Assembly (NCBI RefSeq): GCF_027322205.1
Contig: NZ_DAHVHY010000016.1
Location: 1 to 35,052, forward strand
Length of the DNA stretch: 35,052 nt
Direction of reading: 5' to 3'
DNA from: Acidithiobacillus sp.
GTDB lineage: Bacteria; Pseudomonadota; Gammaproteobacteria; Acidithiobacillales; Acidithiobacillaceae
Shown here: positions 8,474 to 31,160 of the stretch, piece by piece
How the letters are laid out: every line of letters starts with the position of its first letter
Position numbering within the stretch: position 1 is the first letter of the stretch
Translations under genes and position numbers: made by a program
The notes under the pieces: model-generated
What the model was told of the DNA's origin: nothing
Database searches by the model: none
Seen by the model: only the letters and a program-made list of their open reading frames with translations

Positions 8474-8621
8474 AGGACTCTCCTTCGGGATTTTGTCTTG
8501 CAACGTCAGGGCTTATCGGTATGCTCCGGGTTGGACTCTGGAAAAAGGCCGAGAGTTCCAGCCAATCGTCGTAGCATAACACATAAATCGCAATGGGAGG
8601 CGATAGTGGACAGCAACATTC

Positions 8622-13898: not shown

Positions 13899-16800
13899 GT
13901 GAGGGAGTTGTATCTGCCCTCTCCGGACCTACGGGTAAGATCGTCCCGGCTCTTCCTTTTGAACGCCGAAATTCTTTTTGCCTACGTCGCTCTCACCGCT
14001 GTCACCCTGATCCTGACCACCAGCCACCAACCCCAAGATTATGACATTTGGCCCCTTTGGCCTGGCGCAGGATTGGCCACCTTTGCCGTGATGCGTTTTG
14101 GGAAATGGGCGGCCCCCAGCATATTTCTCGGATCCACAGTCGCCAATATCCTGCTGATCGGAATGTCTCCCACCATTGCTCTATGGGTCTCCATGGGGAT
14201 CACTTCCGCCCCCCTCATCGCCTTGGCTGTGCTGCGGTGGTTACGTCCTCGATGGTCCGGTTTCCATTACGTAAGGGATGTAGTCGCTTTCATTGCAGTG
14301 ATGGGCATATTCAATGGCGCAATCAGCGGCTTGGGAGGAGCGCTGGGAGTAGTGGTTGGCTGGGATCATTTTCGCATCAATACGTTCGACAAACTCTGGT
14401 TGAGTTGGTCCGTAGGAGATATCTGCAGCATCCTAGGCTTCACCACGATATTCCTGCTTTGGAATTGGAATAGGCCGCGCTCTTTGCCAGGAGGCGCAGC
14501 AGAGCAGTGGCATCTGGGGTTCACCGCCCTCTTGATTCTGGGGCTCACCGCTGGATTATTCCTGGTTCATTATCCCCCACGAAGCATCATGGAAGGAGTG
14601 GTCGGTCTATTGATACTGCCCTTTCTCTGGGCCTTGACTCGATTTCCCATGGAGGAAGTATATCGTATTGGCCTGATGTCCTACATCATTGCTGCGGTTG
14701 GAACCGCTTTCGGTCGAGGACCTTATCAGGCGGTCACCTTGGTTCAACCGGAGACCATGATGCAAATGGTAGCTATCGGGTTGGCGTGCGTCGGTCTCAT
14801 AGCCGGTGCCATGGTCGCCGAGGCCAATCGTGCCAAACTTGCGCTGCAAACAGCCAACCATGCACTTGAGGATCGGGTCCGCGCACGTACTGCCGATTTA
14901 CAACAAAGCCATCAGGAGTTACTGATTCGTGAATCCTTGTTGTTCTCTTTGAGCGAAATCAATCGCCTCTTTGCCAGCGCTCCCGACCGCGAACTGATTC
15001 CGGTATTACAGCAATTTTGCGAGATCCTGACAGATCGTCTAAGCCTGCAAGCCGTTTGGTTAGGGAAGGTGGCAGCGGGAAAGAATGAGGTGGAGATTCT
15101 CGCCAAAGCCGGGCCGTTGGCCCGGATGCTCGAACAGGTGCATATTTCCGCGAATCCGGATATTCCTGGGGGTGGCGGGCCTACTGCCCAGGTTTTCATG
15201 ACGGGGAAGGCGATGCTTTTTGATGCAGGCGACTCTCACTATGACTCTTGGCGCCCTATGGTCGAAGCCTATCAATTGGGAGGGAGCGCCCATGTACCGC
15301 TACCTTGGTCAGATGGTGGCCGAGGCGTGATCACCTTATATCGTGGCAAAGGAGAGTCCTTTCCACAAGCGATTACCATACTTCTCAATCGCCTTGCCGA
15401 AGACTTGGCGGTTTTTCTTGAGCACCGCGAAGTTGCCTTTGCTCTTAGCACTGCGCAGACGCTCCAGCGAGCCATGATTTCTGCTGGGGATATCGCCCTG
15501 AGGGCCAGGGACGAGCAAGGCATGTTGGATAGCATGTGCCAGAAACTGATCGACAGCGGACTTTTTGTGGCTGCGTGGATTGCCAAGCCGGATGCAAATG
15601 ACTGCTTTGTACCACTCGCTTCAGCTGGAGAACTCGCGGCCAATGCCTTGAAACAGTGGTGGCCTGCGTCGGCCACTATGCCGGAAGGTTATACCGTAGG
15701 TGCCCGCGCGTGGCGCAGCGATACGATGGTTTTCCAGCAGGATTATCTCAGCGATCCGTTGATGGCCCCCTGGCGGGACCAAGGTATGACATACGGTTGG
15801 CGAGCCGCCGCCGCCACTACTATCCATCGACAAGACTCGCGCTGGGGAATCCTGGCGGTAATTGGCAATCAGGTAGGCATGTTTACTCCAGAAGTTCGCG
15901 AGGTCTTGTCCCGCATTGCCGAGCTTGTGGGTCATGGCCTGGATGAAATTTTCCTCAAAAATGTCCTCGCCGAAGGGCAACAGAAACAGAGCTACTTGGC
16001 CAGCCATGACATGCTCACCGGCCTTCCCAATCGCCGGGGATTGACCGAATACCTGCAGAAGGCGTTGCTTCGAGCAGAACGACACCAAACGCTTCTCGCC
16101 CTGGGAATCCTTGATCTGGATGATTTCAAGCCGATTAATGATGTCTATGGTCATGCTGCCGGTGATCTGCTTTTACAAGGTGTCGCTGGGCGATTGTGCG
16201 ATATTCTGCGCGCCTCGGACTTCGTGGCCCGCCTTGGAGGCGACGAATTTGTACTCGTGATGGATGATATCCAAGAACGGGACGCCATCCCCTTGCTACT
16301 CGACAAAATATACGATGCCATTGTGCAGCCCATCGCTCTCGCTGACGGTACCCTGGTAAAGGTGGGCGTTAGCTTGGGTCTTACCATTTATTCCCACGAT
16401 AACGCGGACACTGACCTTGACCTTCTGCTGCGTCATGCCGATCACGCCCTCTATAAATCTAAAAAAGAAAAAAACACGCGTGAACATTTCTGGGTCATCT
16501 ATCCGCCTGATAAGAAGGAGGGTGTAGATCATCATTTGCCTCATGTGTTGCATTTGCTTTACCACGGAGGGTTGCGCGTACGCTATCAGCCGGTTCTGGA
16601 ATTGAGTACAGGAAAAGTGGTGGGTATAGAAGCCCTAGCCAGATTAAGAGATGCAACCGATGAGATCGCTCCTGATAAATTCTTACCCCAACTCCGCAGT
16701 GGCGATCAATGGGCGCTGACCTCAGGCGTAATTGCGCAGGTTCAGAAAGACATGCAAAGCGTGGTTGGGGCTTGTGATAATATATGGGTATCCATCAATG

Positions 16801-17609
16801 TATTGCCGAAATTTATTTGCAATCCCGACGATCGAAAAAAGCTTCTCACCCTTTTAACCGCCACGAATCTATCCCCACAGCGCATCATCCTAGAACTGCT
16901 GGAAAGCAGCGATTTTTTCTCCCATGAGCTGGCTATAGCGGGCATCGCTGATTTCAGGAAGTTGGGTTATCGTATTGCCCTGGATGATGTTGGTAGTGCC
17001 TATGCTTCCCTGTTACGCCTCAAGAACTTGCCAGTAGATGAAATCAAGATTGATCAAGCCTTCGTACGTCATTTAGGCCGCAAACCAGAGGATCTGTACT
17101 TCATAAAATCATTGCTGGACTTGGGTAACGCCATGCATGTGGACGTCATTGTGGAAGGCGCTGAAAGCACCGAAATCCTGGGTGCTCTGCGCGCTATCCA
17201 TGTCCCCATGGCACAAGGTTATGCTATCGCGGCCCCTATGCTCATGCCGGAGTTACATGCCTGGCTGGACAAGCAGATCCCACCGTGCAGTACAGCTACA
17301 CCACAAGGTCTCCTTAGCCTTTACGCCCACAGTGTATGTTATCATTTAGCCATACAGAATCTCGTTGGCCAAGCCCCCAAATTATTTGTGGATATGGCTC
17401 CATGGATACGCCAGCGTTGCCCTACCGCTGTCCGCATCAAAGACCTAGGGCTCGAAGGCAGCGCAGTTGATATTGCCCATACCGAGTACCGCCGCACTTT
17501 AGAGGCTATTGGTAAGAATATTATGTTGGGCAAATCCACTGATCAGGCGGATTTACAGCTGAGCCTTAATCACTTTCAGGAAACATTAAGAGAGGCAAAC
17601 CGTATTTGA
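13899..17609 (+). CDS. MASE1-GAF-GAF-GGDEF-EAL c-di-GMP turnover protein
   Basis: This ~1236-residue membrane protein should make and/or break cyclic di-GMP. Order: MASE1-type membrane sensor with about eight hydrophobic segments (about 15-310), a short coiled coil (ALEDRVRARTADLQQSHQEL), two GAF-like domains (about 345-505 and 520-690), GGDEF (about 700-865) and EAL (about 875-1120). The cyclase motif ARLGGDEF is intact, with an RxxD inhibitory site (RASD) five residues before it. The EAL domain keeps IEALARLRD, SINV, LELLE, ALDDVGSAYASLLRLK, IKIDQ and VEGAE, so phosphodiesterase activity is possible. A ~105-residue C-terminal extension resembles that of the protein at 25071-28292. Start: GTG at 13899 follows AGGGG by 8 bases; TTG at 13878 is the alternative. 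Which activity dominates cannot be told from sequence. Confidence 0.92.
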   Translation: MRELYLPSPDLRVRSSRLFLLNAEILFAYVALTAVTLILTTSHQPQDYDIWPLWPGAGLATFAVMRFGKWAAPSIFLGSTVANILLIGMSPTIALWVSMGITSAPLIALAVLRWLRPRWSGFHYVRDVVAFIAVMGIFNGAISGLGGALGVVVGWDHFRINTFDKLWLSWSVGDICSILGFTTIFLLWNWNRPRSLPGGAAEQWHLGFTALLILGLTAGLFLVHYPPRSIMEGVVGLLILPFLWALTRFPMEEVYRIGLMSYIIAAVGTAFGRGPYQAVTLVQPETMMQMVAIGLACVGLIAGAMVAEANRAKLALQTANHALEDRVRARTADLQQSHQELLIRESLLFSLSEINRLFASAPDRELIPVLQQFCEILTDRLSLQAVWLGKVAAGKNEVEILAKAGPLARMLEQVHISANPDIPGGGGPTAQVFMTGKAMLFDAGDSHYDSWRPMVEAYQLGGSAHVPLPWSDGGRGVITLYRGKGESFPQAITILLNRLAEDLAVFLEHREVAFALSTAQTLQRAMISAGDIALRARDEQGMLDSMCQKLIDSGLFVAAWIAKPDANDCFVPLASAGELAANALKQWWPASATMPEGYTVGARAWRSDTMVFQQDYLSDPLMAPWRDQGMTYGWRAAAATTIHRQDSRWGILAVIGNQVGMFTPEVREVLSRIAELVGHGLDEIFLKNVLAEGQQKQSYLASHDMLTGLPNRRGLTEYLQKALLRAERHQTLLALGILDLDDFKPINDVYGHAAGDLLLQGVAGRLCDILRASDFVARLGGDEFVLVMDDIQERDAIPLLLDKIYDAIVQPIALADGTLVKVGVSLGLTIYSHDNADTDLDLLLRHADHALYKSKKEKNTREHFWVIYPPDKKEGVDHHLPHVLHLLYHGGLRVRYQPVLELSTGKVVGIEALARLRDATDEIAPDKFLPQLRSGDQWALTSGVIAQVQKDMQSVVGACDNIWVSINVLPKFICNPDDRKKLLTLLTATNLSPQRIILELLESSDFFSHELAIAGIADFRKLGYRIALDDVGSAYASLLRLKNLPVDEIKIDQAFVRHLGRKPEDLYFIKSLLDLGNAMHVDVIVEGAESTEILGALRAIHVPMAQGYAIAAPMLMPELHAWLDKQIPPCSTATPQGLLSLYAHSVCYHLAIQNLVGQAPKLFVDMAPWIRQRCPTAVRIKDLGLEGSAVDIAHTEYRRTLEAIGKNIMLGKSTDQADLQLSLNHFQETLREANRI

Positions 17610-18000: not shown

Positions 18001-18045
18001 TTATGATCGTTGCGATACATTCTGGCGGGTGGGGTGGAATCAATT

Positions 18046-19443
18046 ATGGGGACCACTATATACAGTCAACTTGCGGGGCAGCGTGCCGTTGTTACTGGCC
18101 GCCCCCTACTGTATTTCGGCGCGAAGCGGACTATCGGGCCATGGGCGGAGCGTTTATGCAGCGAGGGCTGGCAACTAGTGTATGCAGAAGATATCAGTGA
18201 CCTGCAAAAACTCTTGGCCACAGCGGATTTCAAAGTAGGAATCGTCGCTCTAGACCCCCAGGCTATCATTGATAATGGTCGGCGGGTGGAGTCCACCATC
18301 GCCAAGGCGGAGCAGATCCGCTGGATCGCCTTGCTCCCCAGGGAGGCCATGGACCTTCACCCCCTGCGTGAGTTGATCGGCGGCGCATTTTACGACTACC
18401 ACACCCTGCCTATTGACCCCAACCGGTTGCTACTCACCCTGGGGCATGCCTTGGGGATGGCAGAGATTGCCGCCGACGCGCTCCCGCCCGAAGAACGGGA
18501 AGTGCGCAACAATGGCGAAAGTGAAATGGTCGGCACCAGCCCACAGATGCAAAAGGTGTTCAAAGAGATTCGCAAAGTGGCCGGGGTGGTGGCTCCTGTG
18601 CTGATTACCGGTGAAAGTGGCACGGGCAAGGAACTGGCCGCGCAGGCCATCCACGAACGCTCCCCGCAGGCCGCTGGCCCCTTCATTGCCGTGAACTGCG
18701 GGGCATTGCCCGCGAACCTCATCCAGTCCGAGCTCTTCGGCCACGAAAAGGGCTCCTTCACCGGTGCCCACCAGCGCAAAATTGGCCGTATCGAGGTCGC
18801 CTCCGGCGGCACCCTCTTCCTCGATGAAATTGGCGATCTGCCCATGGAGCTCCAGACCAACCTTCTGCGTTTCCTGCAGGAAAAAACCATACAGCGGGTG
18901 GGTGGCCGAGAAGACATTACCGTGGATGTGCGAGTGATTGCCGCCACCCACGTCAATCTGGAAAAGGCCGTTCACGAGGGCTGCTTCCGCGAGGATCTCT
19001 ACTATCGCCTCAATGTCCTGCAGATCAAAATGCCCGCTTTACGCGAACGTATCGGCGATGTGCCCCTGTTGGCCCAATATATCTTCCGCCGCTTCGCCGA
19101 CGAAAAGGGGCGTCGGGTCAAAGGATTCAGCGAAGATGCTCTGCACACCATGAACCACTACGACTGGCCTGGTAATGTCCGCGAGTTGATCAATCGGGTA
19201 CGCAGAGCCATGGTGATGTGTGACAAGTTCTTAATCTCCCCTGTCGACCTGGGACTGGAACGGAGAATAAACTCCCGAAGCGTGGTTACTCTGAGCGAAG
19301 CGCGCGACAAGGCGGAAATAGACACCATCCGCGCCGCGCTCGGCCAAAACCGGGGCAGTGTCTCACTGGCGTCGAGACAACTTGGCATCTCTCGTGTCAC
19401 GCTATATCGTTTTATGGAGAAACACGGGCTTAGCAGAATATAA
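18046..19443 (+). CDS. Sigma54-dependent activator, VpsR/FleQ-like (regulator 1)
   Basis: This 465-residue protein has a divergent receiver-like N-terminal domain (about 20-140, with FYDYHTLPID at 115-124), a AAA+ ATPase domain and a C-terminal Fis-type helix-turn-helix (about 430-462, ASRQLGISRVTLYRFMEKHG). The ATPase has Walker A GESGTGKE (189-196), Walker B LFLDE (257-261) and a sigma54-contact loop GSFTGA (236-241) rather than the standard GAFTGA. VpsR-type regulators control biofilm matrix genes, several in response to c-di-GMP. I prefer the ATG at 18046, preceded by GGGGTGGA, over a TTG at 18010. It is followed after 58 bases by the beta-barrel gene on the same strand. The family is clear; targets are inferred from the sigma54 elements in the window. 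Confidence 0.9.
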   Translation: MGTTIYSQLAGQRAVVTGRPLLYFGAKRTIGPWAERLCSEGWQLVYAEDISDLQKLLATADFKVGIVALDPQAIIDNGRRVESTIAKAEQIRWIALLPREAMDLHPLRELIGGAFYDYHTLPIDPNRLLLTLGHALGMAEIAADALPPEEREVRNNGESEMVGTSPQMQKVFKEIRKVAGVVAPVLITGESGTGKELAAQAIHERSPQAAGPFIAVNCGALPANLIQSELFGHEKGSFTGAHQRKIGRIEVASGGTLFLDEIGDLPMELQTNLLRFLQEKTIQRVGGREDITVDVRVIAATHVNLEKAVHEGCFREDLYYRLNVLQIKMPALRERIGDVPLLAQYIFRRFADEKGRRVKGFSEDALHTMNHYDWPGNVRELINRVRRAMVMCDKFLISPVDLGLERRINSRSVVTLSEARDKAEIDTIRAALGQNRGSVSLASRQLGISRVTLYRFMEKHGLSRI

Positions 19444-19501: not shown

Positions 19502-20554
19502 ATGAAACGACATGACTTGATGCAACCAGCGATTTACGCATCCGCGATACTGGCAGGTGTTTTATGCAGCGCCGGACCCGCCTGGGCCGATAATGCTTCC
19601 TCTAGCGAAGCGCCACCGAGCAAGCCAGTCGGGCAAGCTCCAGCCAAAGAGAATCGTCCACCGGCCGTCGAAACCCTCATCAGCACCACCGGTGTACTTA
19701 CGCCGGCAGGCAAGTTCGTCATTGAGCCCTTTATCCAATACACCCACTCATCATCCAGTATCGCCGCCGTGCAGGGCTTCGTGCTCGCCCAAGTACTGGC
19801 GATTGGCAACATCAACATTCAGCAGTATACCAACGACACCGTCTATACAGGTGTCACCTTCCGCTATGGGGTGAGCAATCGCCTGGAAATGGACCTCAAG
19901 GTGCCTTTCGTTTATGCGCAACAAAACACTTCCGTCTCCAACCTGACCAACAACGGTGTCCAGCAGGCATTCAACAGTACGGGCTCGGGTCTGGGAGACA
20001 TTGAGTTCTCCATGCATTATCAAATTAATCAGGGTGGCAATAATTCGCCCTATTACATTGCCAATTTGCAAGTAAAAAGCATGACCGGCAGTAGTCCCTT
20101 CAGCATGCCCACCTATCAAAGTTATCCGGTCGGCATTCTCGAACAGCAGCCGACGGGTACAGGCTTCTGGGGTGTCCAGCCCAGCCTCACGGTACTCTAT
20201 CCCTCCGACCCGGCCGTTTTTTACGGGAATGTGAGTTACCTCTGGAATATTGGTCACAATGCCGCCGGCACCTATATCAGCCCTGGCAACGCCGTCGGCT
20301 TTGGCTTTGGTGCGGGCCTGTCTCTGAACGACCGCGCGTCGATCAGCCTGGGTTACAACCAAAGCATCGTCAGTCCGCCCGAAGTGGGTGGCGTTACCCC
20401 GCCCCTTGCCACAACCCTGGAGGTAGGTTCTTTTCTGGTGGGTTGGTCTTACACCCTCAATAAAAGCACATCCATCAATCTGAATCTGGCTGTGGGCGCC
20501 ACCCGGCAGGCACCGGACGTGCAACTCACGCTGCGCGTGCCTTACACTTTCTAA
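19502..20554 (+). CDS. Outer-membrane beta-barrel protein, possible FapF-like amyloid exporter
   Basis: This 350-residue precursor has a signal peptide ending at AWA (about residue 29), a proline-rich linker (about 33-55), then a beta-barrel of alternating strands ending in VQLTLRVPYTF with the C-terminal Phe usual for outer-membrane proteins. Motifs such as TTGVLTPAGKFVIEPFIQYT and YGVSNRLEMDLKVPF resemble a family of predicted outer-membrane transporters which I recall from Fap-like loci. In Pseudomonas, FapF is the trimeric pore that secretes amyloid subunits, with a helical plug before the barrel; the linker here is short. It is convergent with the amyloid operon and probably cotranscribed with regulator 1. 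Outer-membrane placement is well supported, FapF equivalence is inference. Confidence 0.75.
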   Translation: MKRHDLMQPAIYASAILAGVLCSAGPAWADNASSSEAPPSKPVGQAPAKENRPPAVETLISTTGVLTPAGKFVIEPFIQYTHSSSSIAAVQGFVLAQVLAIGNINIQQYTNDTVYTGVTFRYGVSNRLEMDLKVPFVYAQQNTSVSNLTNNGVQQAFNSTGSGLGDIEFSMHYQINQGGNNSPYYIANLQVKSMTGSSPFSMPTYQSYPVGILEQQPTGTGFWGVQPSLTVLYPSDPAVFYGNVSYLWNIGHNAAGTYISPGNAVGFGFGAGLSLNDRASISLGYNQSIVSPPEVGGVTPPLATTLEVGSFLVGWSYTLNKSTSINLNLAVGATRQAPDVQLTLRVPYTF

Positions 20555-20628: not shown

Positions 20629-21321
20629 TTACAACGTCTTGGCGAAGGCAAAGCCTCCGTATCCGGTACTAGGCAGACCACTGATGTAGTTGACTCCCCC
20701 CTCCCCTTCCACACGCCAGCCATCACCCAGAGCAACAGAGACAAAGGCCCCTACTTGGTGGATGCGATAATTGATCCCACCCTGCAAGACGCCTTCAGGG
20801 CCGAAGCTCAACCATGACACCGGTCTAACCCCTACCCGGAACTGGCTCCAGTAGGCACGCTGGCCAAAGGAATAGCTGGCCATGGTGCCGGCATAAAGCA
20901 TGGGGGTGAAATCGTAGCGCGCCTGAATCTGGGGGGTGAAGGTCACGGTGCCGCCCACCGGACCCCCTGCTCCGAGATCAGAATGGACCGAAAAGTATTG
21001 ATAACCCAAAGCACCCGAGAGGGCCAACTGATAGGCTGTCCCTCCCCACGCATACCCCAAACCACCCTGAACGCCGGGGGCCTTAACGCTCACTGTCCGT
21101 GTGGTGTGGTAATGATAAGCCAAATAGTTGGCAAAGATCGTCCCAAACCAACCAGATCCCAAACGCGCGCCCGCAAAAGGCATGATCGCCCCCAAATAGC
21201 TATAGGAGTTTTCCTGTGCCATCTGCGTGCCTCCCAGTAGCAAGGGTTGGGCCATGGTCGGCTCCACCCCCACCCCCATGCACAGGCCCATCAATACCGC
21301 TATGCCGATCCAATGACGCAT
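20629..21321 (-). CDS. Secreted beta-barrel protein, possibly BcsS-like (cellulose-associated)
   Basis: This 230-residue precursor has a signal peptide (MRHWIGIAVLMGLCMGVGVE to TMAQ) and a Gly- and aromatic-rich beta-strand pattern ending in a Phe-rich C-terminus (GYGGFAFAKTL), as expected of a small outer-membrane barrel. The block YSYLGAIMPFAGARLGSGWF resembles the start of the cellulose biosynthesis BcsS family as I remember it; this is a suggestion, not a firm match. An upstream in-frame start exists, but GAGAGGA before the ATG at 21321 decides for the shorter form. It is the last gene of the amyloid operon and converges on the other barrel gene. If BcsS-like, it would link this operon to the BcsA-like synthase at 28353-30512. 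Confidence 0.65.
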   Translation of the reverse strand: MRHWIGIAVLMGLCMGVGVEPTMAQPLLLGGTQMAQENSYSYLGAIMPFAGARLGSGWFGTIFANYLAYHYHTTRTVSVKAPGVQGGLGYAWGGTAYQLALSGALGYQYFSVHSDLGAGGPVGGTVTFTPQIQARYDFTPMLYAGTMASYSFGQRAYWSQFRVGVRPVSWLSFGPEGVLQGGINYRIHQVGAFVSVALGDGWRVEGEGGVNYISGLPSTGYGGFAFAKTL

Positions 21322-21403
21322 TGCCGTTCCTCTCTTTCTGTTCCTCCTGTAGCACTTGATGCCGGCGCCCCCATCCCCCGATTGCCAGCATACGCCCAGA
21401 GGC

Positions 21404-21826
21404 TCAGTTGCCGCTGAAGGAACCAGATGACTGCACCACGGACGCGGGCAGATTTTGCACATTGGGTAGGATTGGTACTAGCGACTGCGGTGCGCCCAGT
21501 CTGACACCTCCTTGGATATGGCCCCGGGAACTACCACCCGTGCCTTGGGTGTTGGAGGATGTGGCCGACATGGGCAGTTCATCCCAGAGCATGACCACTG
21601 GCATTTGACGGGCAGCGGCTGCCAAGCTGGGTACAGCCATTTCCCCACCCCTGGCTTGCCGCAAAATGGCGTTACTGACGATAGCGCCCCTATCGAAGGC
21701 CGCCAGTTGCATTGCTGGAGAGGTGGTATGGTCACCTGCTGGCTCTGCCGCCATGACGGGCGCCCAGGCCCATATTCCCAACACCACTCCGGCGCCGATC
21801 AGCATCCGTATCATCTTCCGAGACAT
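21404..21826 (-). CDS. Small secreted protein of the amyloid operon
   Basis: This 140-residue product has a clear signal peptide (MSRKMIRMLIGAGVVLGIWA, cleavage after VMA near residue 26). The mature part is Gly-, Ser- and Pro-rich without membrane segments. It contains RQARGG at 56-61, which loosely recalls the double-glycine motif of the next protein upstream. The C-terminal half (GTGGSSRGHIQGGVRLG) looks disordered. AAGGGGG precedes the ATG. I do not recognise a family. It lies between the LRGGF protein and the BcsS-like barrel, so a role in assembling or decorating the fibre or matrix is possible by context only. Confidence 0.7.
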   Translation of the reverse strand: MSRKMIRMLIGAGVVLGIWAWAPVMAAEPAGDHTTSPAMQLAAFDRGAIVSNAILRQARGGEMAVPSLAAAARQMPVVMLWDELPMSATSSNTQGTGGSSRGHIQGGVRLGAPQSLVPILPNVQNLPASVVQSSGSFSGN

Positions 21827-21852
21827 GGCAACCCCCTTCCGTCTTGTCCACC

Positions 21853-22401
21853 TTACGGAACGTTCAAACTCCGAATGTTACCCTGCTGCAGAGCCTGACC
21901 AACCTGGGTCATTTGCTGGGTATGTATCGCGTTGCTGACATCCAGATTGATTACGGTCGCATGCTGGATCACCTGATTGTTGAGGTTGTTCTGCACCACC
22001 GCCAAGGCGCTGGTAGCCTGGTTGAGGAGGCTGCTGGAAACCTGGTTCGCATTCCCCACCTGCACTACCTGCTGTACACCATTTCCCTGTGCCACCACCA
22101 TGGTCTGCTGAACACGGGTATTCTGCGATGCGATGATGCTATTACCGCTAGAGCCGGAGTCGATCCCCGAGCGTGATGCCAGCATTCCGTTGATATAGGT
22201 GGTCATCTCCACACCAAACTTCACCATCATGCCCCCGACATCGAAACCTCCGCGCAATTTTGCCAACTCAGCTACAGGCACCGGCATTCCGAGCACAGGC
22301 ATGACCGACGCACTGGCGGGTCCTGCCATGCTGAGGATGATCACGGCACTCATCAGGGTATGCTGGAAAGACTGTTTCGACTTGCAAGAGAACTCATCCA
22401 T
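21853..22401 (-). CDS. Secreted protein with LRGGF motif, possible amyloid accessory/minor subunit
   Basis: This 182-residue protein has an N-terminal hydrophobic signal region (about 15-32, ending SAS). Residues 46-53 read LAKLRGGF, like the end of a double-glycine leader (L-x2-L-x-GG), and the matching peptidase type is encoded directly upstream. After FDVGGMMVKFGVEMTTYING the sequence is Asn/Gln/Val-rich with amphipathic alternating stretches (SNAIHTQQMTQVGQALQQGN), in keeping with a fibre subunit or nucleator. ATGs lie at 22407 and 22401; GGAGG has better spacing (8 bases) for 22401. It could correspond in role to FapE or FapB of Pseudomonas, but I see no decisive similarity. Confidence 0.75.
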   Translation of the reverse strand: MDEFSCKSKQSFQHTLMSAVIILSMAGPASASVMPVLGMPVPVAELAKLRGGFDVGGMMVKFGVEMTTYINGMLASRSGIDSGSSGNSIIASQNTRVQQTMVVAQGNGVQQVVQVGNANQVSSSLLNQATSALAVVQNNLNNQVIQHATVINLDVSNAIHTQQMTQVGQALQQGNIRSLNVP

Positions 22402-22431
22402 GATCATTTCCTCCGGTTATTTTAAGATGCT

Positions 22432-23145
22432 TCAAAAACTTCCTGCCCGAGGCAGCGTGAGCAGGAAGGAACCCAGCGACGGTTGCTGCTGCATAGCTGC
22501 AGCCAGCGGCGCGCGGGGTACTTTGTCCCATTCGGCAATGCTGTTAAAGGAGGCCTTGGCCAGCTTGATGCCCGGCCCACTGGTAATGACGAAAAGAATC
22601 CCGTTTTTCTTCCACATGGCATCAAAGGATTTCCGAGGGATAAGGCGCAAGCCCAAGGCCGGATCGCCGACCAGCACCTCATCCTGCTCGACCCCTTTCA
22701 CCACCACAAAATGCATGTAGCCGTTAAAATCGATAAGAGCAATCGCTGGCAGATTCACCTTGGCCAGATTGCGCAAAGAAGTCCGGAAGCCGTTGGCCGC
22801 AAAGCCATGGGCGTCCAGATAGCTTTTCATATCAAGGAGGGAGAACCCTTCCTTTTCAATGACCGCTTTGTCACCATGATCCCACATCCACTTAAAGACT
22901 TTCATCTCATCCGTGGGGTCGCCATAGCTATAGGTGAGCAAGGTGGCTACCGCCGCGGATCCACAGCTAAAATCATACTTTTGATGGATCACCGACTGAA
23001 AGTGCATGGCATTCATGCTCTTGACGGGAATATTGAATTGACCGCCAGCGGTGGACAAAAAAGCATCGGCCACGGCCTGCCCCTGACTCAGGACCAGCGT
23101 GACCAATAATGAAGCCATTGCCAACAACCAGCGTTTAGCAGACAT
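22432..23145 (-). CDS. C39-type periplasmic cysteine peptidase, FapD-like
   Basis: This 237-residue precursor has a signal peptide (MSAKRWLLAMASLLVTLVLS, cleavage near AVA at 24-26) and a papain-like C39 fold: Gln55 (oxyanion), Cys61 in QKYDFSCGSAAVATLL, His145 in YMHFVVVKG and Asp161 in GDPALG. All residues of the catalytic set are present. FapD in Pseudomonas is a C39-like protein required for Fap secretion or maturation; stand-alone C39 peptidases of this type cluster with such operons. ABC-transporter C39 domains cut after double glycine, which makes the LRGGF protein encoded next a candidate substrate. The ATG follows GGGAG by six bases. It is the third gene of the operon. Peptidase family is firm, substrate is inference. 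Confidence 0.88.
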   Translation of the reverse strand: MSAKRWLLAMASLLVTLVLSQGQAVADAFLSTAGGQFNIPVKSMNAMHFQSVIHQKYDFSCGSAAVATLLTYSYGDPTDEMKVFKWMWDHGDKAVIEKEGFSLLDMKSYLDAHGFAANGFRTSLRNLAKVNLPAIALIDFNGYMHFVVVKGVEQDEVLVGDPALGLRLIPRKSFDAMWKKNGILFVITSGPGIKLAKASFNSIAEWDKVPRAPLAAAMQQQPSLGSFLLTLPRAGSF

Positions 23146-23157
23146 GACAAACTCCCA

Positions 23158-23517
23158 TCAATGCATGGTCAGATTGATCTGCATCGCATTCTGAATGAGG
23201 ACATTATTACCCGAATTCTGAATGACCGTTACAAAACCGGAGGCATTGCCAAAGGCGCCGCCCTGGATGATGTTGCTGCCGGTAACAACCCCATTACCTA
23301 CCATATTTCCCGCTGAAGTCCCATTCATCACCAAGGTGGACAAGCTCTGATTGGGCAATGCCTTGCCCGCAGAATGTACTAACGCCTGGCTGCCTACGGC
23401 AGTACCCAGCAGGGCCAAACCGGATACGCCATCCATCGGCAAGGTGGCCGCTTGCGCGCCGAATGCCCAGGATAGCAAAATACCCGTCATGAATAAGTGA
23501 CGCATGCGAATGTTCAT
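23158..23517 (-). CDS. Small secreted protein with one amyloid-type repeat
   Basis: This 119-residue precursor has a signal peptide (MNIRMRHLFMTGILLSWAFG, cleavage after AQA near residue 23) and ends in a unit that matches the repeats of the neighbouring large subunit: GAFGNASGFVTVIQNSGNNV then LIQNAMQINL. The shared pattern F-x2-ASG-x8-NSG-x2-x3-L-x-QN-x-x-x-x-V/I suggests a common fold. It could be the minor or nucleating subunit, as FapB is to FapC. GAGGAGAG lies directly before the ATG at 23517; the frame extends upstream but without a better start. Its stop lies 12 bases before the FapD-like gene. Confidence 0.8.
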   Translation of the reverse strand: MNIRMRHLFMTGILLSWAFGAQAATLPMDGVSGLALLGTAVGSQALVHSAGKALPNQSLSTLVMNGTSAGNMVGNGVVTGSNIIQGGAFGNASGFVTVIQNSGNNVLIQNAMQINLTMH

Positions 23518-23592
23518 GATCTCTCTCCTCACATTCTTGGTAAAAATGGGGAATGCCGGAATACTGGCACCCCCCATCTTGCATCGCGTGAC

Positions 23593-24651
23593 TTACCGAT
23601 TGACCTGGATGGAGGTCTGGTTCTGCAACATGCTGTTGGCGCCGGTGTTCTGGTTGAGCGCGATCACACCAGAGGCATGCTGGAAAGCGTTGCCACCGAT
23701 GGTGGCGTTAGCCGCATAGTTCGCCTGGGTGAATGCACACGGATTGCAAGGATTGCCCGTGGCAGATACCTGCAGAGCGTTCCCCGCTACCACACCCCCC
23801 AGCGCGCCAAAGGCGTTGCCGCTGCTGGAACCCACCTGGCTGACCTGTACGTTGGTCTGATTCTGCAGGAGGCTATTGGCGCCGCTGTTCTGGTTGGCCG
23901 AGATGATGCCCGATGCGCTGTTGAAGGTATTGCCATTGATGGTGGCATTGGCATTGTAATTGGTCAGACCATTCTGGCCATACCGGTTGTACCCAGGATC
24001 AGCGGAGATATCGACCGTGTTTCCCAAGACGGCGCCCCCCTGCAAAGAGACCAAATCCACTTTACCGGTAAAGCATTTGCCATCGGCGCAAGGACTCAAT
24101 TCGTTGACCTGCACGTTGGTTTGATTGTCCAGGAGGCTGTTGGCGCCGCTGTTCTGGTTGAGGGAAATGATACCCGATGCGTTGGCAAAGGCATGGTCGC
24201 CCAGATAGGCGTTACCGTCATAGTTGGTCTGGGCACCGTCGGTGCTTACCCCGATCCGGTTTCCATGCACCAAGCCCAGATCTACGCTCTTCATTTTCGC
24301 GTGGATGTCACCACTGACGGCATTCACCTGCACCTGGGTCTGATTTTGCAGCAAGCCGTTGGCACCGCTGTTCTGGTTGGCCGAAGCGACACCGGTCACA
24401 TTCTCAAAGGCCTGACCATTGATGGTGGCATCGGAGCCGATATTGGTCTCGCTGTTGTTCAACCCGTTACCACTGGTCGCAGAGACTGAATTACCGTGAA
24501 CCACGCCCACCTTCACCACGTCGCTATTGGCCTTGGCGGGTTTGGCCGAATGGTGGGGTGGGGGTGGGGGTGGATTCCCGTTGTCCCAAGCAAACGCGGC
24601 ACCAGAAAACGCAAGAGCCAATGCAGAAACTAAAAGTGCTGACTTTTTCAT
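23593..24651 (-). CDS. Secreted four-repeat Asn/Gln/Gly-rich protein, likely major amyloid subunit (FapC-like)
   Basis: This 352-residue precursor starts MKKSALLVSALALAFSGAAF and is probably cleaved after AFA; a His/Pro-rich spacer (27-40, six-plus prolines) follows. Four 35-residue units at 75-109, 148-182, 236-270 and 316-350 share A-x-I-x-G-x2-F-x2-A-S-G-(I/V)-x3-NQN-(S/T)-GAN-x-(L/M)-L-x-NQT-x-(V/I)-QV, separated by linkers that contain V-x-GN and NY. This repeat-and-linker design, Asn/Gln richness and neighbouring C39 peptidase match the logic of Fap fibres. Cys188/Cys193 and a CNPC pair (302-305) lie in the linkers; Pseudomonas Fap subunits also carry a CxxC. GGAGGAAG precedes the ATG. 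First gene of the operon, 110 bases after a sigma54 promoter. Amyloid formation is inference. Confidence 0.85.
   Translation of the reverse strand: MKKSALLVSALALAFSGAAFAWDNGNPPPPPPHHSAKPAKANSDVVKVGVVHGNSVSATSGNGLNNSETNIGSDATINGQAFENVTGVASANQNSGANGLLQNQTQVQVNAVSGDIHAKMKSVDLGLVHGNRIGVSTDGAQTNYDGNAYLGDHAFANASGIISLNQNSGANSLLDNQTNVQVNELSPCADGKCFTGKVDLVSLQGGAVLGNTVDISADPGYNRYGQNGLTNYNANATINGNTFNSASGIISANQNSGANSLLQNQTNVQVSQVGSSSGNAFGALGGVVAGNALQVSATGNPCNPCAFTQANYAANATIGGNAFQHASGVIALNQNTGANSMLQNQTSIQVNR
23602..24429 (-). repeat. Four imperfect 35-codon repeats in the amyloid-subunit gene
   Basis: Units at codons 75-109, 148-182, 236-270 and 316-350 are clear at protein level, with start-to-start spacings of 73, 88 and 80 codons. 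Units 3 and 4 keep NQTNVQV/NQTSIQV endings and unit 1 has NQTQVQV. At DNA level the CAGAACCAGAC-type core recurs but the linkers have diverged, so this is old duplication rather than recent slippage. Confidence 0.9.
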
Positions 24652-24761: not shown

Positions 24762-24777
24762 AGCAATCCCCATGCCA
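24762..24777 (-). promoter_or_regulatory. Sigma54 promoter of the amyloid operon
   Basis: On the minus strand the sequence is TGGCATGGGGATTGCT. It has GG and GC separated by exactly 10 bases and fits the consensus TGGCAC-N5-TTGCW with one change in the -24 element. It lies 110 bases upstream of the first ATG. Confidence 0.82.
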
Positions 24778-25070: not shown

Positions 25071-28000
25071 TTATGGTTTAGGAAAGGGTGGACTATGTCC
25101 GTTGGCCTCACGAATCGCGCTGAGGAGGACCTGCTGGAAAAAACCCGCCGCATCCTCGGCGGCCGTCCAGTCCACCGCGCCCTCCGCTCGAAAAGCCTTG
25201 ATCGTGGCCTCCAGCACACGATGATAGGCATGATGCGCAATATCAATAGTCGTGCCTGCCAATCCCAGTGCCGCAATGGCGGCCGTTATGGGGGAGGACA
25301 ACGCATCCTGCAGCGGCAAACCGGTCAGCCACGGGGGATTTTTCACGGCCAATCCCTGGATCAGGCTGACATAAGCAAGGTGATGGGCAAAAATACCGAG
25401 GAGGCTGTAGAGCGAGTCTTCCCGTGGCGGGGGTGAACACCGCAGCCATTCGTGCAGGACATCGACAGGCATCGCCGGAGCAATGGCGTAGCCCTGTACC
25501 ATGGGCACGTTGAGCACTTTCAGCGCATCGAGCACATCGGCTGTCTCACAGCCCTCCGCCACAAAGTCCACCCGCAGGCTGCGACTCAGATCGAGCAGGG
25601 TCTGAATAAAATGCAGACCATTGGGGTTGGCCTTCAGGGTGTGCACAAAGGTCTGGTCGAGTTTGATTTCATCAATGGGAAGGTCCTTGAGCCGCAAGAG
25701 CGAGGAGTAGGCACTGCCAATATCATCCAGGGCTACCCGCACACCAAGGGCCTTGATCTCGAGAATCCGCTCCCGCGCTTCGTCCATGGAAGGAAAATCG
25801 CTGCCCTCCAGGATCTCCAGAACGATGCGTGACGGGTCAATGCTGGCTGCTGTGGCCAGGATACCATCCAGACAGCTCAGGCAGATGCCGGAGATGAGCA
25901 ATTCTGGCGTGACATTCACCGAAACCCACAGGGCATGGCCCGCCTTGTCCAGTTCGATCAGGTCCGTAATGGCCCGGGAAAGCATCAACTGGGTCAGCAT
26001 GTGCTGGTCTTCGGGGTTGAACTGGGGTAGAAACTCCTTGGGCAGGAGGATAGCGCCTTCGCTGTTTTCCAGTCTGGCCAGCGCCTCTATGCCAACGATA
26101 CGATGGGAGGCGAGATCCAGCACCGGCTGGTAAAACACCCGCAGACCACCAGCGCCCAGCAAGGAGCGCAGCGTCTTACCGGCTTTTCGACTTTGATCCA
26201 GGGCGTCATTGTAGTAGCTCCAATACTGATTTCGTTGCTCCTTGGCCGCTTTCGAAACATAGAGCGCCTGATCCGCATGGCGCAGGAGCAGGTCTGCATC
26301 GCAGTCGTCCAGGGGATATACGGTGAGTCCCAGGCTGCCACGCACCTGGATGGTGAGACCTTCGTCGAGGCTGAAAGGTAATTCAAGGGCTTCGCCTACC
26401 TTGGCGATGATTGTCTCCAGGTCACCCAGGTCGCGCAGGTCTTCCAGGATCAGCACAAACTCATCACCCCCCAGGCGTGCGGCAACGTCCGTATGGCGCA
26501 GGGCTTGTTTCAAGCGTTCGGCCAGAACCATGAGCAGGCGATCGCCCATGGCATGTCCATGGGTATCGTTAATAGCCTTGAAATCATCGAGATCGAGCAT
26601 ACCTACACCCAGCAATCGCTCATGGCGAAGTGCCCGCGCCATGGCATCGCCCAGGCGCCGGGCAAGGCCGAGTCGATTGGGCAGGCCCGTGAGACAATCG
26701 TGGTGGGCCTGCCAGGCATGAGACTCCCGTTCGGCGGCCAGTTGTTGACGGCTATGATATTCATCCAGGGCAATACGAATAGTACCCACCAGTTGATTCA
26801 GGAGATTTTGCAGCGCCGGACTAAAATAATCGGCCTCGGTGGACTCCACCATCAGTACGGCTACCGGCGTCGCCCCTCCTCCCGCAAAAATGGGCCATCC
26901 ACCCAATGCCTGCACCTCCCGATTCAGGGATTCTCCCCAGCCTGCACGGATATCTTGATCTTCTTGCACGTCCTCAATCACCAGCGGTGTTGCCGCATGG
27001 TAAACCCGCGCGGCGGCCATGTGGCCATAGGGAAGGTGATCGGGGTTCAACGACACCTGGAGTTCTCGCAGGGCATCTTCGCGCCCCTTGGACCGCGCAA
27101 CTACCGCCGCTTGCTGCAGCCATTCGCTAGCCGGCTTTACCCTCCACACCAACACCCCCAAGGCATCGGTGTATTCCATCAGCAATTGCGCCAGCCGCTG
27201 ATAGAGTATCTCCGGTGCCGGTTGACGCAACATTTCCTGTTGCAGTATCTCCAGCGCCTTCTGGTAATGGTGTAAACGTGCAAGTTCCAGGGCCGTTTTC
27301 CGGCGATCCAAAAAAGCCCCAAGGTCTTTCGCCAAACGGGAAATCAGGCCTCTGATACCTTCCGGGAAGGTTTCGCCATCGCGTCGGTAAATGGAAACGA
27401 TACCTCGGCCGCCTTCGCCGAAATAAAAGGGCGCTCCGGCAAAACCCTCAATGCCATGGGTAACAGCCAGATCCCGCCAGGGCGCCATGACCGGGTCGTC
27501 GCGATGGCAGATATAGGGCTGGCCCGAAAAGATGGCCTGTCCACTCGGACCATACCCTTCGGGCGTATCCGGATCTACAGATATGCGCATGTCACCAAAA
27601 ACCTGTGTGGCAGGACCCGCAGCGGCGGCGATGGACAGCACTGATTGCCCATGGGAGGCGATGCCAATCCAGACCATGGGGGCATGCAGGATATTGGTCA
27701 TTTGGGTGACCACCCGGGAAAAAATATCCTCAACGGAGGACTCTGATTGCGGATGCGTCAGCATCCGGTTTACCTGGGTAATGGCCAGGTAAAAAACCTC
27801 CCGGGAAGCCGCCAGTCGTGCCGCTGCCTGCTGAAAACCTTCCCCCAGCCAGAACATATCCAACTGCAGGCGTTTGCACAGGGCGTGCCAGAGCGACCGA
27901 GACCGTTCCGGTGTAAGGCCCAGCGCTTCCACTCCGGTCTCAAAATCCTCGGCGAGAAGACCATAACACAAGGTAATCGACTGAATGGGCAGGCCCATCT

Positions 28001-28292
28001 GTTGGTAGCCAGCGCCTGCATGCTGCAGAACAGTCCGTCGCTCAGCGTCATACTCTGCACACAGGAGCGCAGCATAATGACTTTCCATGAGCTCCCGAGC
28101 TTGGGTCGGAAACGCTTTACGCAGTAGCGGCCGCAAACTCTGCTCTTGTTGCAGGAGTGTTATCCAGCGCTCGGCAAATGCCCCCCGCCGCAGTGCGATG
28201 CAAGGGCCATAGCGCCGCAGCAAGGCCTCCTCGCCCGGAGTGGGTACGAGGAAGGTTGGCGGAGGATCTGATCCGGCATCAATGAGCGACAT
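25071..28292 (-). CDS. Globin-like/GAF-GGDEF-EAL c-di-GMP turnover protein
   Basis: This 1073-residue soluble protein has no membrane segments. Residues about 20-155 resemble the protoglobin sensor fold, but the position of the heme-binding His (before GLP) is Tyr96 (GYQQMGLP). Two GAF-like domains (about 185-355 and 370-520) follow, then GGDEF (about 535-700; ARLGGDEF intact, RHTD inhibitory site five residues before) and EAL (about 715-955; IEALARLEN, SVNVTPE, LEILE, ALDDIGSAYSSL, IKLDQ, AEGCET), so both activities are possible. A C-terminal extension of about 115 residues resembles that of the protein at 13899-17609. AAAGGAGGG precedes the ATG. It follows the BcsA-like gene by 60 bases, so it probably supplies or removes the c-di-GMP that the synthase's PilZ domain binds. 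Confidence 0.92.
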   Translation of the reverse strand: MSLIDAGSDPPPTFLVPTPGEEALLRRYGPCIALRRGAFAERWITLLQQEQSLRPLLRKAFPTQARELMESHYAALLCAEYDAERRTVLQHAGAGYQQMGLPIQSITLCYGLLAEDFETGVEALGLTPERSRSLWHALCKRLQLDMFWLGEGFQQAAARLAASREVFYLAITQVNRMLTHPQSESSVEDIFSRVVTQMTNILHAPMVWIGIASHGQSVLSIAAAAGPATQVFGDMRISVDPDTPEGYGPSGQAIFSGQPYICHRDDPVMAPWRDLAVTHGIEGFAGAPFYFGEGGRGIVSIYRRDGETFPEGIRGLISRLAKDLGAFLDRRKTALELARLHHYQKALEILQQEMLRQPAPEILYQRLAQLLMEYTDALGVLVWRVKPASEWLQQAAVVARSKGREDALRELQVSLNPDHLPYGHMAAARVYHAATPLVIEDVQEDQDIRAGWGESLNREVQALGGWPIFAGGGATPVAVLMVESTEADYFSPALQNLLNQLVGTIRIALDEYHSRQQLAAERESHAWQAHHDCLTGLPNRLGLARRLGDAMARALRHERLLGVGMLDLDDFKAINDTHGHAMGDRLLMVLAERLKQALRHTDVAARLGGDEFVLILEDLRDLGDLETIIAKVGEALELPFSLDEGLTIQVRGSLGLTVYPLDDCDADLLLRHADQALYVSKAAKEQRNQYWSYYNDALDQSRKAGKTLRSLLGAGGLRVFYQPVLDLASHRIVGIEALARLENSEGAILLPKEFLPQFNPEDQHMLTQLMLSRAITDLIELDKAGHALWVSVNVTPELLISGICLSCLDGILATAASIDPSRIVLEILEGSDFPSMDEARERILEIKALGVRVALDDIGSAYSSLLRLKDLPIDEIKLDQTFVHTLKANPNGLHFIQTLLDLSRSLRVDFVAEGCETADVLDALKVLNVPMVQGYAIAPAMPVDVLHEWLRCSPPPREDSLYSLLGIFAHHLAYVSLIQGLAVKNPPWLTGLPLQDALSSPITAAIAALGLAGTTIDIAHHAYHRVLEATIKAFRAEGAVDWTAAEDAAGFFQQVLLSAIREANGHSPPFPKP

Positions 28293-28352: not shown

Positions 28353-30512
28353 TCATCCCGACGCACTTTCCGCCGCCTGGTAGACATAAACCGGCGCCGC
28401 AGAACTACCCACCCGCTCACTGAAATCCGCCTTGATACGCAGAAACTGCCGCTGGTATTTGCCTTGTGTCAACATTTGCACATCTGCCTCAGGCCCAAGC
28501 GTATCATAGGTCATAAATACGCGTGATCCGCTGGTATTGGCGGAAATCAAACCCACATACTGCTGATCTCCCGGAACGTCCAGCCGATGATAAAAAACAG
28601 GTATCCAGCGTCGAACTTTATTGCCACGGAGTCCCTGGCCCATCAACCAGATCCGCAGACTTTCCAGAGGGGTGCGTACCCGCTCGGATAGCCCGAGAAC
28701 GCGCCACTGCAAATCTGAGCCATGCAGAAATGACCCCAAACGGTCCCTGGTCGCATCGTCCCGCCAAAGGAAGCGGCAACCCACAGTGCGCATCTTGCCT
28801 GTTCCACCCTTATTTTCACCAACCACTTCCGCAGCAAAAGGAATTTCTACGTCAGGGAGCAGTAAGCGACCGCTAATTTTACCATGCACGGCGATCTCTT
28901 GCGCCAGGCGCGAATAAATACGAAATCCGGAAAGCGAAATGTCTTCGGCAATGGCCAGTTCGGTCAAGTCTAGCGGATCATCAATACGCACCACGATAGG
29001 CACAGGAAACCGGTATTCGCCGCGACGATGACGACGCACCATGGTCATAGTCACTACCAGAGCCGCCAGACCGATGTTCACACTGGCCCACAGCACGCCT
29101 GCCACCAAGGCACCCGTGGGGATCGTGTGATATCCGGAAAGTCCCCATAACCCAAAGGGAATGGCGACCGCATTCGCCCCAAGTATAGTATACTGGGGAA
29201 CCATATAATGTTGTTCTCCATGGATAGCGCTGGCAGTCTTTGGTGTCACGATAAAAGTGATTTTTCTCCTGAACCAGCCCAGCGTGGACACCATAAGTGC
29301 CCAAAATCGCGTCATATTGAACTGCTCCGTCTGGAGCACGCGGCCATAGCCACGATTAATTTCCTCAAAGGCCCAGAACGTGAACACATAATAAGGGATG
29401 AAGTGCCACAGAAAGGTGGAACTGCCCATATCCACGATGGGTAACCACCCCAGGACCAATACCAGTACCGGTGCTGTATAGAATATCGCTTTCTGCCAAC
29501 CATCGAAGTAGGTGATGGCTGATGCCAGGTAATTGATCCGCTGCGGTATCGTCAGGCCGCGAGCCAAGAGAATGCCCTCCTTGCGCCACACCTGCATGGC
29601 TCCCTGCCCCCAACGTGTGCGCTGCCGCAGATAAGGACCGATAGCCAGGGGCGCCAACCCATAGGCCAGGGATTCCGGGTGATAGACCGATGTATAGCCC
29701 TTCTTGTGTAAGCACAGGGAAGTATGAAGGTCCTCCGTGACCGTTCCCGTGGCGAAGCCACCAATGCTATCCAGCGCTGACCGACGGATCACCGCGCAGC
29801 TACCGCAAAAAAATGCCGCATTCCAGTAGTCCTTGCCACGTTGTATCACGCGAAAGAATAGCGACTGCTCCGACCAGATGCTCTGGTTTCTGGGGCTTTT
29901 GATATGCTGATACGAATCTAGATTATAGAAATCCTGTGGGGTCTGCACAAAAGCCACATTCTCGTCGCCAAAATATCCCAGCGTATGTGTTAAAAATTCC
30001 TTCGATGGAATATGATCTGCATCGAAAATGGCCAGAAAATCAGCTTCTACATGGCGCAGGGCATTATTCAATGAACCAGCCTTCGCATCGGTATTTTCCG
30101 GACGCGTGAGATAGTTGCAACCGAGCTCCTTGGCGAGGCGCCGCATCTGCGGGCGACGACCATCATCCAGCAACCAGGTCTGATGGGGATAATCCATGCG
30201 GATGGCACCCAGCAATGTTTGCCGCAGCATGGCTACCGGCTCATCGAGGGTGGGAATGAGTACCGCCACCTTTAACCCTGGGGGTGCGGGTGGAGATTGC
30301 CGTAGCGCTAGCCGCCACGTCATGAACAGATGGAGCATGATGGTAAAGAAGCTGAAAAGCTCCGCTCCGTACAGCAGAATGGAAAAAACCAGATGGTTAT
30401 CATTCAAGACCCCCGCCCGCCATGGGAGATACCAGGCTGCGGCGAGAAGGAAGATAAATACAACGACTATTTTTTCCTTACCCAGGGACTCATAGGGCAT
30501 ATGCTTGGTCAC
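28353..30512 (-). CDS. bcsA: BcsA-like cellulose synthase catalytic subunit with PilZ domain
   Basis: This 719-residue inner-membrane family-2 glycosyltransferase would polymerise glucose from UDP-glucose and move the chain outward. Seen: N-terminal membrane segments (about 14-65), DD (116-117), DAD (164-166), TED (259-261), QRTRW (297-301), further membrane segments, the gating-loop motif FIVTPK (420-425), and a PilZ domain with RGEYR (497-501) and DISLSG (524-529) for c-di-GMP binding. The set is complete for a c-di-GMP-activated synthase. The start is GTG at 30512, three bases after GGAGGTGA. No bcsB, bcsC, bcsZ or bcsQ lies in the window, which is unusual since BcsB is normally needed; they may be elsewhere, or the product may be another beta-glucan. 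The GGDEF-EAL gene follows in the same unit. Confidence 0.92.
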   Translation of the reverse strand: MTKHMPYESLGKEKIVVVFIFLLAAAWYLPWRAGVLNDNHLVFSILLYGAELFSFFTIMLHLFMTWRLALRQSPPAPPGLKVAVLIPTLDEPVAMLRQTLLGAIRMDYPHQTWLLDDGRRPQMRRLAKELGCNYLTRPENTDAKAGSLNNALRHVEADFLAIFDADHIPSKEFLTHTLGYFGDENVAFVQTPQDFYNLDSYQHIKSPRNQSIWSEQSLFFRVIQRGKDYWNAAFFCGSCAVIRRSALDSIGGFATGTVTEDLHTSLCLHKKGYTSVYHPESLAYGLAPLAIGPYLRQRTRWGQGAMQVWRKEGILLARGLTIPQRINYLASAITYFDGWQKAIFYTAPVLVLVLGWLPIVDMGSSTFLWHFIPYYVFTFWAFEEINRGYGRVLQTEQFNMTRFWALMVSTLGWFRRKITFIVTPKTASAIHGEQHYMVPQYTILGANAVAIPFGLWGLSGYHTIPTGALVAGVLWASVNIGLAALVVTMTMVRRHRRGEYRFPVPIVVRIDDPLDLTELAIAEDISLSGFRIYSRLAQEIAVHGKISGRLLLPDVEIPFAAEVVGENKGGTGKMRTVGCRFLWRDDATRDRLGSFLHGSDLQWRVLGLSERVRTPLESLRIWLMGQGLRGNKVRRWIPVFYHRLDVPGDQQYVGLISANTSGSRVFMTYDTLGPEADVQMLTQGKYQRQFLRIKADFSERVGSSAAPVYVYQAAESASG

Positions 30513-30972: not shown

Positions 30973-31160
30973 CTTTTGCCGACTGCCCTTCGGAAACTGG
31001 CATTTACATCGGGTTCTTTGCCCCTTTTTGGGGGCGGTGCAAAATGTTTCAAGGGAGCAACAGTCAGTTGGAAGCGCACCCCGCCTGTAAACCCCTGAGC
31101 CAAGATAATAACCGGCCTATATGGCCCGAAATCGTATAGATGCGAAGCGAGGAAGCCTTG

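Follow-up and report, generated by a model that had tools for sequence, protein, structure and literature searches.

The functional amyloid of Pseudomonas (Fap) is encoded by fapABCDEF. In Pseudomonas, FapC secretion depends on the active-site Cys of the FapD peptidase, and FapE is the sole protein without N-terminal peptides, hence its suspected role as the FapD target (PMC5557850). The substrate of FapD is stated to be unclear (PMC5557850, PMC6173800), and Fap proteins are said to have no canonical C39 sequences (PMC5557850). Fap in Acidithiobacillus is already published, and this kind of system is thus known (PMC3792158, PMC6173800, PMC10853474). Dueholm et al. described Acidithiobacillus systems with 4-8 repeats in FapC, two in FapB, a detached fapF, and fapA often absent. 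fapA is not defining, as it is missing from 6 of 16 genera, and Fap clusters were found to be genus-specific with little transfer (PMC3792158). Vesicles of F. caldus contained FapF and FapD (PMC10853474). Here, we describe a Fap locus in a stretch of 35,052 nucleotides, hereafter the window, which is one whole contig (NZ_DAHVHY010000016.1) of the Acidithiobacillus-like genome G000. The locus likely encodes a complete amyloid secretion system of a second Fap class, in which FapD would cut a leader off FapE and thereby license export.

The locus contains six minus-strand genes between 20629 and 24651, whose open reading frames (ORFs) are all open at the coordinates given in the initial annotation, with gaps of 12-82 base pairs (bp). 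From the promoter side, the order is fapC, fapB, fapD, fapE, a gene for a small protein called LWDE here, and bcsS. All six products start with a basic/hydrophobic stretch that by eye is a Sec-like signal, in agreement with their proposed export, and FapF likewise starts with such a stretch. The fapC-like gene (23593-24651, minus strand) encodes a 352-amino-acid protein that is predicted to be the major fibre subunit. It has four copies of the strict Fap repeat pattern G-x4-N-x3-G-x6-N, as many as had been counted initially, and none of 20,000 protein shuffles reached this number (mean 0.10, maximum 2). The protein matches the NCBIfam FapB model NF058557 at 7.1e-13 (48.6 bits, cut-off 190), and a PDB search with the FapC profile returned nothing up to E=1. 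The fapB-like gene (23158-23517, minus strand) encodes the 119-amino-acid single-repeat partner, a predicted minor subunit with one repeat-like unit in which Ile replaces the first Asn. Homologs of this FapB found by phmmer precede fapD in loci L029-L033.

fapD (22432-23145, minus strand) encodes a 237-amino-acid C39 peptidase with a Sec-like signal that matches Pfam PF03412 at 5.3e-21 and the NCBIfam FapD model NF058616 at 1.4e-40 (138.9 bits, cut-off 330). C61, H145, D161, and Q55, which we take to be the catalytic residues, are all present, so the peptidase is intact as first noted, and each is conserved in 55 of 55 aligned FapDs. fapE (21853-22401, minus strand) encodes a 182-amino-acid protein with a predicted double-glycine leader and a repeat-like C-terminus. 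The outer-membrane pore gene fapF (19502-20554, plus strand) is convergent to the operon, and its product matches the solved FapF (PDB 5o67) at 6.8e-33 and NCBIfam NF058560 at 9.7e-39 (133.3 bits, cut-off 700). An N-terminal coiled coil was not seen by eye in nine FapFs of the window's order; it was seen in L033, L041, L048, and L082. No ORF of at least 100 amino acids lies wholly between 24651 and 25071, where fapA was considered, and no FapA profile or genome search for fapA was run. The Fap profile searches that had been suggested place the repeat protein with FapB and the peptidase with FapD. Because the FapB, FapD, and FapF scores all fall under the curated cut-offs, the window proteins are not Pseudomonas-type NCBIfam equivalogs, which fits the original description of the operon as divergent. 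The parallel drawn initially with fapB/C/D/E is borne out, but that list omitted the adjoining fapF. Judged from sequence, the locus is a Fap system, and a fuller one than first described.

The window FapD is the clearest sign of a second class. FapD matches were found in 20 of the 40 genomes searched, the window's own included, and some of the matches (e.g., L046) are not Fap loci. A scan of genome contigs revealed two near copies only. The window FapD shares 95% identity with its counterpart in A. ferriphilus DSM 100412 (L027) and 87% with the one from a metagenome-assembled genome (L028). Identity to other copies from the same family, which are of the usual type, is 37-42%, and identity to G025 and G026 from another family of the order is 54-56%; a further G026 copy, interrupted by a stop, is at 38%. 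A tree of 55 FapDs was built by a quick method with Shimodaira-Hasegawa-like approximate likelihood ratio support only, and it contains several long branches. In it, a branch with support 100 splits 21 rows on the window's side from 34 rows. Duplicates were dropped (L061, of L048, and L079, of the window), and L087 and L090 were excluded because the FapD frame is cut short. The 34-row side holds the FapDs that score over the NCBIfam cut-off as well as the usual Acidithiobacillaceae ones. The window's side includes Sphingomonadales, and its Cupriavidus, Croceicoccus, Polymorphobacter, and Photobacterium loci are on plasmids or secondary replicons. A Vibrio locus and a second Photobacterium locus encode RGG FapEs next to a short FapD frame and were kept out of the tree. 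Genome G038 carries one locus per class (L033 and L048). Unlike the genus-specific clusters reported by Dueholm et al., both classes are found here within one genus. The Croceicoccus record annotates the second-class genes as hypothetical protein, C39 family peptidase, and transporter. In this phylogeny, the window side is a second deep FapD clade. We take it to be a second, ancient Fap class, which is new here and largely overlooked by current annotation. The class is not described in the accessible text of PMC3792158, PMC6173800, or PMC10853474, and its novelty is judged from the open-licence literature of PubMed Central (PMC).

The protein first noted for its LRGGF motif exists as stated and can now be identified as the FapE of the second class because of its position after fapD and a profile-profile match over the leader and following residues. 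The leader ends in G in 22 FapEs and in K or R in 35. When the 22 GG-type FapEs were compared with 25 K/R-type FapEs (10 of the 35 were left out of the alignment), hhalign gave a probability of 96.8 over 41 columns; the mature part alone gave 11. The NCBIfam FapE model matches 2 of the 22 GG-type FapEs and 24 of the 25 K/R-type FapEs tested, and does not reach the window FapE. Among the GG-type proteins, the Arg before GG is invariant, plus one Asn far downstream. Second-class loci in the tree encode an RGG FapE in 20 of 21 cases, and the remaining locus, L088, has VGR.

The leader-like segment of the window FapE, VPVAELAKLRGG (22246-22281, minus strand), follows the Sec-like signal, and FapD is predicted to cut between G52 and F53 (after VPVAELAKLRGG and before F). 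C39 leaders have the consensus L(-12)xxxE(-8)L(-7)xxxxG(-2)G(-1), in which -7 and -12 are required for binding (PMC6959990). Controls for this pattern were 310 ORFs, that is, 397 control ORFs minus 87 Fap-like ones. A relaxed form, [LIVM]xxxx[LM]xxxxGG, fits 21 of the 22 GG-type FapEs, a class picked by its GG, including the window's, and 9 of the 310 controls. With G, K, or R allowed at -1, it fits 55 of 57 FapEs and 13 of 310 controls, partly by construction, as the sites were picked by L/M, G, and G/K/R. A first pattern detected the motif in the gene downstream of fapD in 46 of 59 loci. A second pattern, widened once the 13 missed loci had been inspected, detected it in 57 of 57 scanned loci and in L085, or 58 of the 59 loci with a C39 hit. 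The only locus without it is L046, whose fapD neighbour is not FapE-like; L046 and L085 were outside the 57-locus scan. Applied identically downstream of other genes in these loci, the three-frame scan with the wide pattern gave 8 hits in 350, 4 of them with GG. On a FapE profile trained with the window clade left out, the window leader scores 22.5, and the best of 360 controls scores 12.6.

Similar leader-like segments are found on other Fap proteins. Most second-class FapBs bear a like motif that is separate from their repeat. On a FapB-trained profile, again with the window clade out, the window FapE scores 18.4, and 0 of 360 controls score higher. With a profile of 14 FapB leaders, the FapE motif is the top-scoring segment in 43 of 43 FapEs (17 of 17 GG and 26 of 26 K/R), and 15 of 17 GG and 16 of 26 K/R FapEs are above the control 99th percentile. 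In the other direction, the FapE profile places 14 of 21 second-class FapB sites and 10 of 15 LWDE sites above that percentile. FapB and FapE leaders resemble each other more when both come from one locus than after re-pairing (20.7 vs 15.6, 1/5000 permutations, n=21), also with near-copies out (22.3 vs 16.3, 5/5000, n=15). The same holds for LWDE and FapE leaders (27.6 vs 22.4, 2/5000, n=15). Related loci are non-independent, and these counts should not be read as strict probabilities; L083 and L087 are absent from the FapB table. We propose that the same-locus likeness comes from a shared FapD.

The LWDE gene (21404-21826, minus strand) encodes a 140-amino-acid protein that is the second predicted FapD substrate. 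Its leader-like segment, VSNAILRQARGG (21644-21679, minus strand), scores 9.0 (control 99th percentile, 8.4; 3 of 360 controls higher), and the protein scores 10.7 on the FapB profile with the window clade out (99th percentile, 9.7). It was first recorded as a small Gly/Ser-rich protein, and this RGG protein can now be likened to the small protein of the family's other Fap loci (hhalign probability 88, 46 columns). Homologs by phmmer were found only in L029 and L030, and the LWDE motif is present in 15 of 21 loci scanned, with occurrences in the window's family and in L031. We propose that the LWDE protein is secreted and cut by FapD. L031 also has two fapC paralogs (8257-9162 and 11657-12643), one on either side of the block of fapB-D-E and the LWDE gene, and both paralogs have a sigma-54 site of their own.

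The two FapE types were also compared with residues of FapD. Position 63 in window numbering, two residues past the catalytic Cys, is Ser in 19 of 20 GG loci and Ala in 35 of 35 K/R loci. L088, which is in the second-class clade with a GR FapE, has Ala63; at the 34 class-splitting columns, it follows the K/R class at 2, the GG class at 14, and neither at 18. A specificity switch at position 63 was set aside, because L078 pairs Ala63 with a GG FapE and GR occurs in several FapBs beside Ser63, and it is kept as a lead only.

Several observations weigh against leader cleavage as the role of the motif. The window FapE departs from the literal consensus at -12, where it has Val, and agrees with it at the other four positions; that consensus fits only 2 of 22 GG-type FapEs (0 of 310 controls). 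The widening of the search pattern after inspection counts here as well. K or R at -1, as in first-class FapE, is unusual for C39, and GR FapBs stand beside a GG FapE in L071, L072, L078, and L082. In Pseudomonas, the missing FapE peptides span ~70 residues, beyond the motif, and the FapF linker is also without peptides (PMC5557850). A convincing leader was not found in the window FapB, where the equivalent site scores 0.8; the scores for its two closest relatives are -1.2 and -0.7. A GK leader in this protein (VGSQALVHSAGK) is plausible by eye but was rejected with this score, below the control 95th percentile of 3.7; the best-scoring stretch (6.7) is without the Gly. Poor scores were also obtained for the L031 LWDE (-5.6) and the L088 FapB (-7.1). 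Each FapB or LWDE site was picked from its own sequence, without reference to FapE, by a score biased towards G[GKR]. Comparisons between the leaders are therefore not fully independent, and the LWDE/FapE likeness is weak with near-copies out (25.8 vs 21.3, 156/5000, n=8). A repeat-like C-terminal segment is common to mature FapB and mature FapE (hhalign probability 94.5, 40 columns). Because of this segment, the two may be paralogs, and FapE, like FapB, may be a subunit of the fibre. The likeness of FapB and FapE leaders may then reflect descent, and the same-locus likeness could reflect gene conversion. Descent alone would explain like leaders but not that likeness is greatest within a locus, for which gene conversion or a shared FapD would be needed.

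These points bear on an alternative that we consider unlikely, namely that the locus is a Fap system in which FapD has a different target, such as the FapF plug, and RG[GKR] is an inherited fold or docking element of FapE and FapB. Cleavage of FapF was raised as a possibility by Rouse et al. (PMC5557850), conservation extends past the RG[GKR] motif, and the repeat-like segment common to FapB and FapE would fit an inherited element. Yet the motif is also present in LWDE, a protein devoid of Fap repeats, and at -12, -7, -2, and -1 the motif is like a C39 leader; the window FapF has no leader match (best score, -4.3). Far less probable is a C39 and FapF-type export module for small bioactive peptides, not amyloid, comparable to the nap island of Neisseria and to Fil. 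FilB (7.5e-34) and FilC (1.8e-7) match the window proteins too, and nap combines a C39 peptidase, a FapF homolog, and GG peptides (PMC11798529). This was dropped as the primary explanation given the amyloid repeats and the better FapD and FapF scores: the FapD and FapF models outscore the Fil models, FapC has four strict Fap repeats, and the leader proteins are 140-182 amino acids in length.

A cellulose or exopolysaccharide accessory operon, with the BcsS barrel and a nearby BcsA-like synthase as its core and the repeat proteins as matrix, seems slightly less probable still. The 230-amino-acid outer-membrane barrel encoded by the last gene (20629-21321, minus strand) is BcsS-like by Pfam PF17036 (1.2e-13, 51.7 bits, cut-off 24), in support of the cellulose-related barrel of the initial annotation. 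A BcsA-like synthase with PilZ is encoded nearby (28353-30512, minus strand), and of five other BcsS places in relatives, four are on the same contig as a BcsA-like gene (G023 is the exception). Against this, A. ferriphilus has just a BcsS remnant, and no BcsS was found in G025 or G026, which retain fapC-B-D-E and fapF. The gene is intact only in the window and G020, and the remnant, with two stops, is between the LWDE gene and fapF (G012:C210:4143-4319). BcsS was thus rejected as a core part and is treated as a dispensable accessory. The BcsA-like synthase has 82% and 70% identity to copies in two relatives and at most 37% in others, and the window's own genome has a partial second copy at 42%. 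A split fapD, fapE, and a glycosyltransferase gene are found on the 6.5-kilobase plasmid p5 of Acidithiobacillus sp. AMEEHan (L085).

The gene for a sigma-54 activator with a VpsR domain (18010-19443, plus strand; Sigma54_activat 6.4e-73 and VpsR 3.3e-19 by Pfam) encodes the probable regulator, and homologs of this gene adjoin fapF in L029, L031, L032, and L043. Another sigma-54 activator, whose VpsR match is weaker (5.9e-8), is encoded at 31140-32546 (plus strand). The predicted sigma-54 promoter, TGGCATGGGGATTGCT (24762-24777, minus strand), is ~110 bp upstream of the fapC start codon. A perfect match to TGGCAYRNNNNTTGCW occurs only once in the window; shuffles average 0.07, and 7 of 100 contain one. 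Such a match is present in 16 of 90 loci, duplicates among them. It is upstream of fapC also in L030, L031 (both fapC copies), and L032, and by the LWDE gene in L040, L042, L043, and L045, with a few others elsewhere. We infer that the VpsR-type activator drives the fapC promoter. In L034, L036, L037, and L039, a perfect site is by a glycosyltransferase gene near fapF (e.g., L034:10959-10974), which suggests a joint amyloid and polysaccharide regulon in the usual Acidithiobacillus Fap loci. Two large GGDEF-EAL proteins flank the Fap region (25071-28292, minus strand, and 13878-17609, plus strand), one with Protoglobin and GAF domains and the other with MASE1 and GAF domains.

In the system that we favour, in which FapD processes FapE, the VpsR-type activator and sigma-54 would turn on fapC-fapB-fapD-fapE-LWDE-bcsS, and the products would reach the periplasm via Sec. 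Periplasmic FapD would then remove a second leader from FapE, and probably from the LWDE protein, after the double glycine; FapB would also be cut elsewhere in the second class. Once trimmed, FapE would license or initiate the passage of FapC and FapB through the FapF pore. FapC would then stack by way of its four repeats, forming an amyloid on the cell surface that aids attachment. We lean, with less assurance, towards the view that all Fap systems combine a Sec signal with a C39-type leader cut by periplasmic FapD, the substrates being FapE everywhere, FapB in the second class, and LWDE in the Acidithiobacillus family. If this is true, part of the supposed false FapD/FapF hits of an earlier survey would be genuine second-class Fap. 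With second-class subunits labelled hypothetical protein, as in the Croceicoccus record, the spread of Fap amyloid is possibly under-counted.

The leader makes the question of the FapD substrate directly testable. Because it ends in GG, not K or R, the predicted FapE cut would be distinguishable from that of trypsin in ordinary mass spectrometry. Second-class FapE nears a canonical C39 sequence, unlike the statement on Fap proteins in PMC5557850. For biomining bacteria, an operon and a promoter are now named for attachment tests.

Like the Pseudomonas Fap system (NF058557-NF058560 and NF058616), the window locus has the repeat subunits B and C, a C39 FapD, a FapE encoded after fapD, and a FapF pore. 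FapEs from loci with a FapD over the NCBIfam cut-off have a comparable motif, LKDxE[LM]AxLRG[RK][YF] in L051-L057 and VPEHELAEMRGRY in L058. Unlike the Pseudomonas system, the window has a FapD of a separate clade, the order C-B-D-E, a convergent fapF, and no fapA seen. It also differs in its single-repeat FapB, a short RGG FapE, the extra LWDE and BcsS genes, and a FapF in which the coiled coil was not seen. With the usual Acidithiobacillaceae Fap (PMC3792158; F. caldus, PMC10853474), the locus shares the convergent fapF, an LWDE-type protein, sigma-54 sites, and a repeat-rich FapC. The usual loci differ in a FapB with 2-3 strict repeats (five loci examined), a FapE of ~250 amino acids with GR or GK, and a glycosyltransferase gene beside fapE or fapF in 8 loci. 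The L042 glycosyltransferase, the only one scanned by profiles, is PgaC-like, and a PgaA-like gene follows it. The Neisseria nap island has a C39 peptidase, a FapF-like pore, and GG-motif substrates as well, but its substrates are bacteriocin-like peptides, and amyloid repeats are not mentioned in the accessible text of PMC11798529. Peptidase-containing ABC transporters (PCAT1, LahT, and ComA) have a C39 domain (6mpz, 9.2e-6) and the same type of leader. In those proteins, the domain is cytosolic and fused to the transporter. The window FapD stands alone and starts with a Sec-like signal, which would place leader removal in the periplasm.

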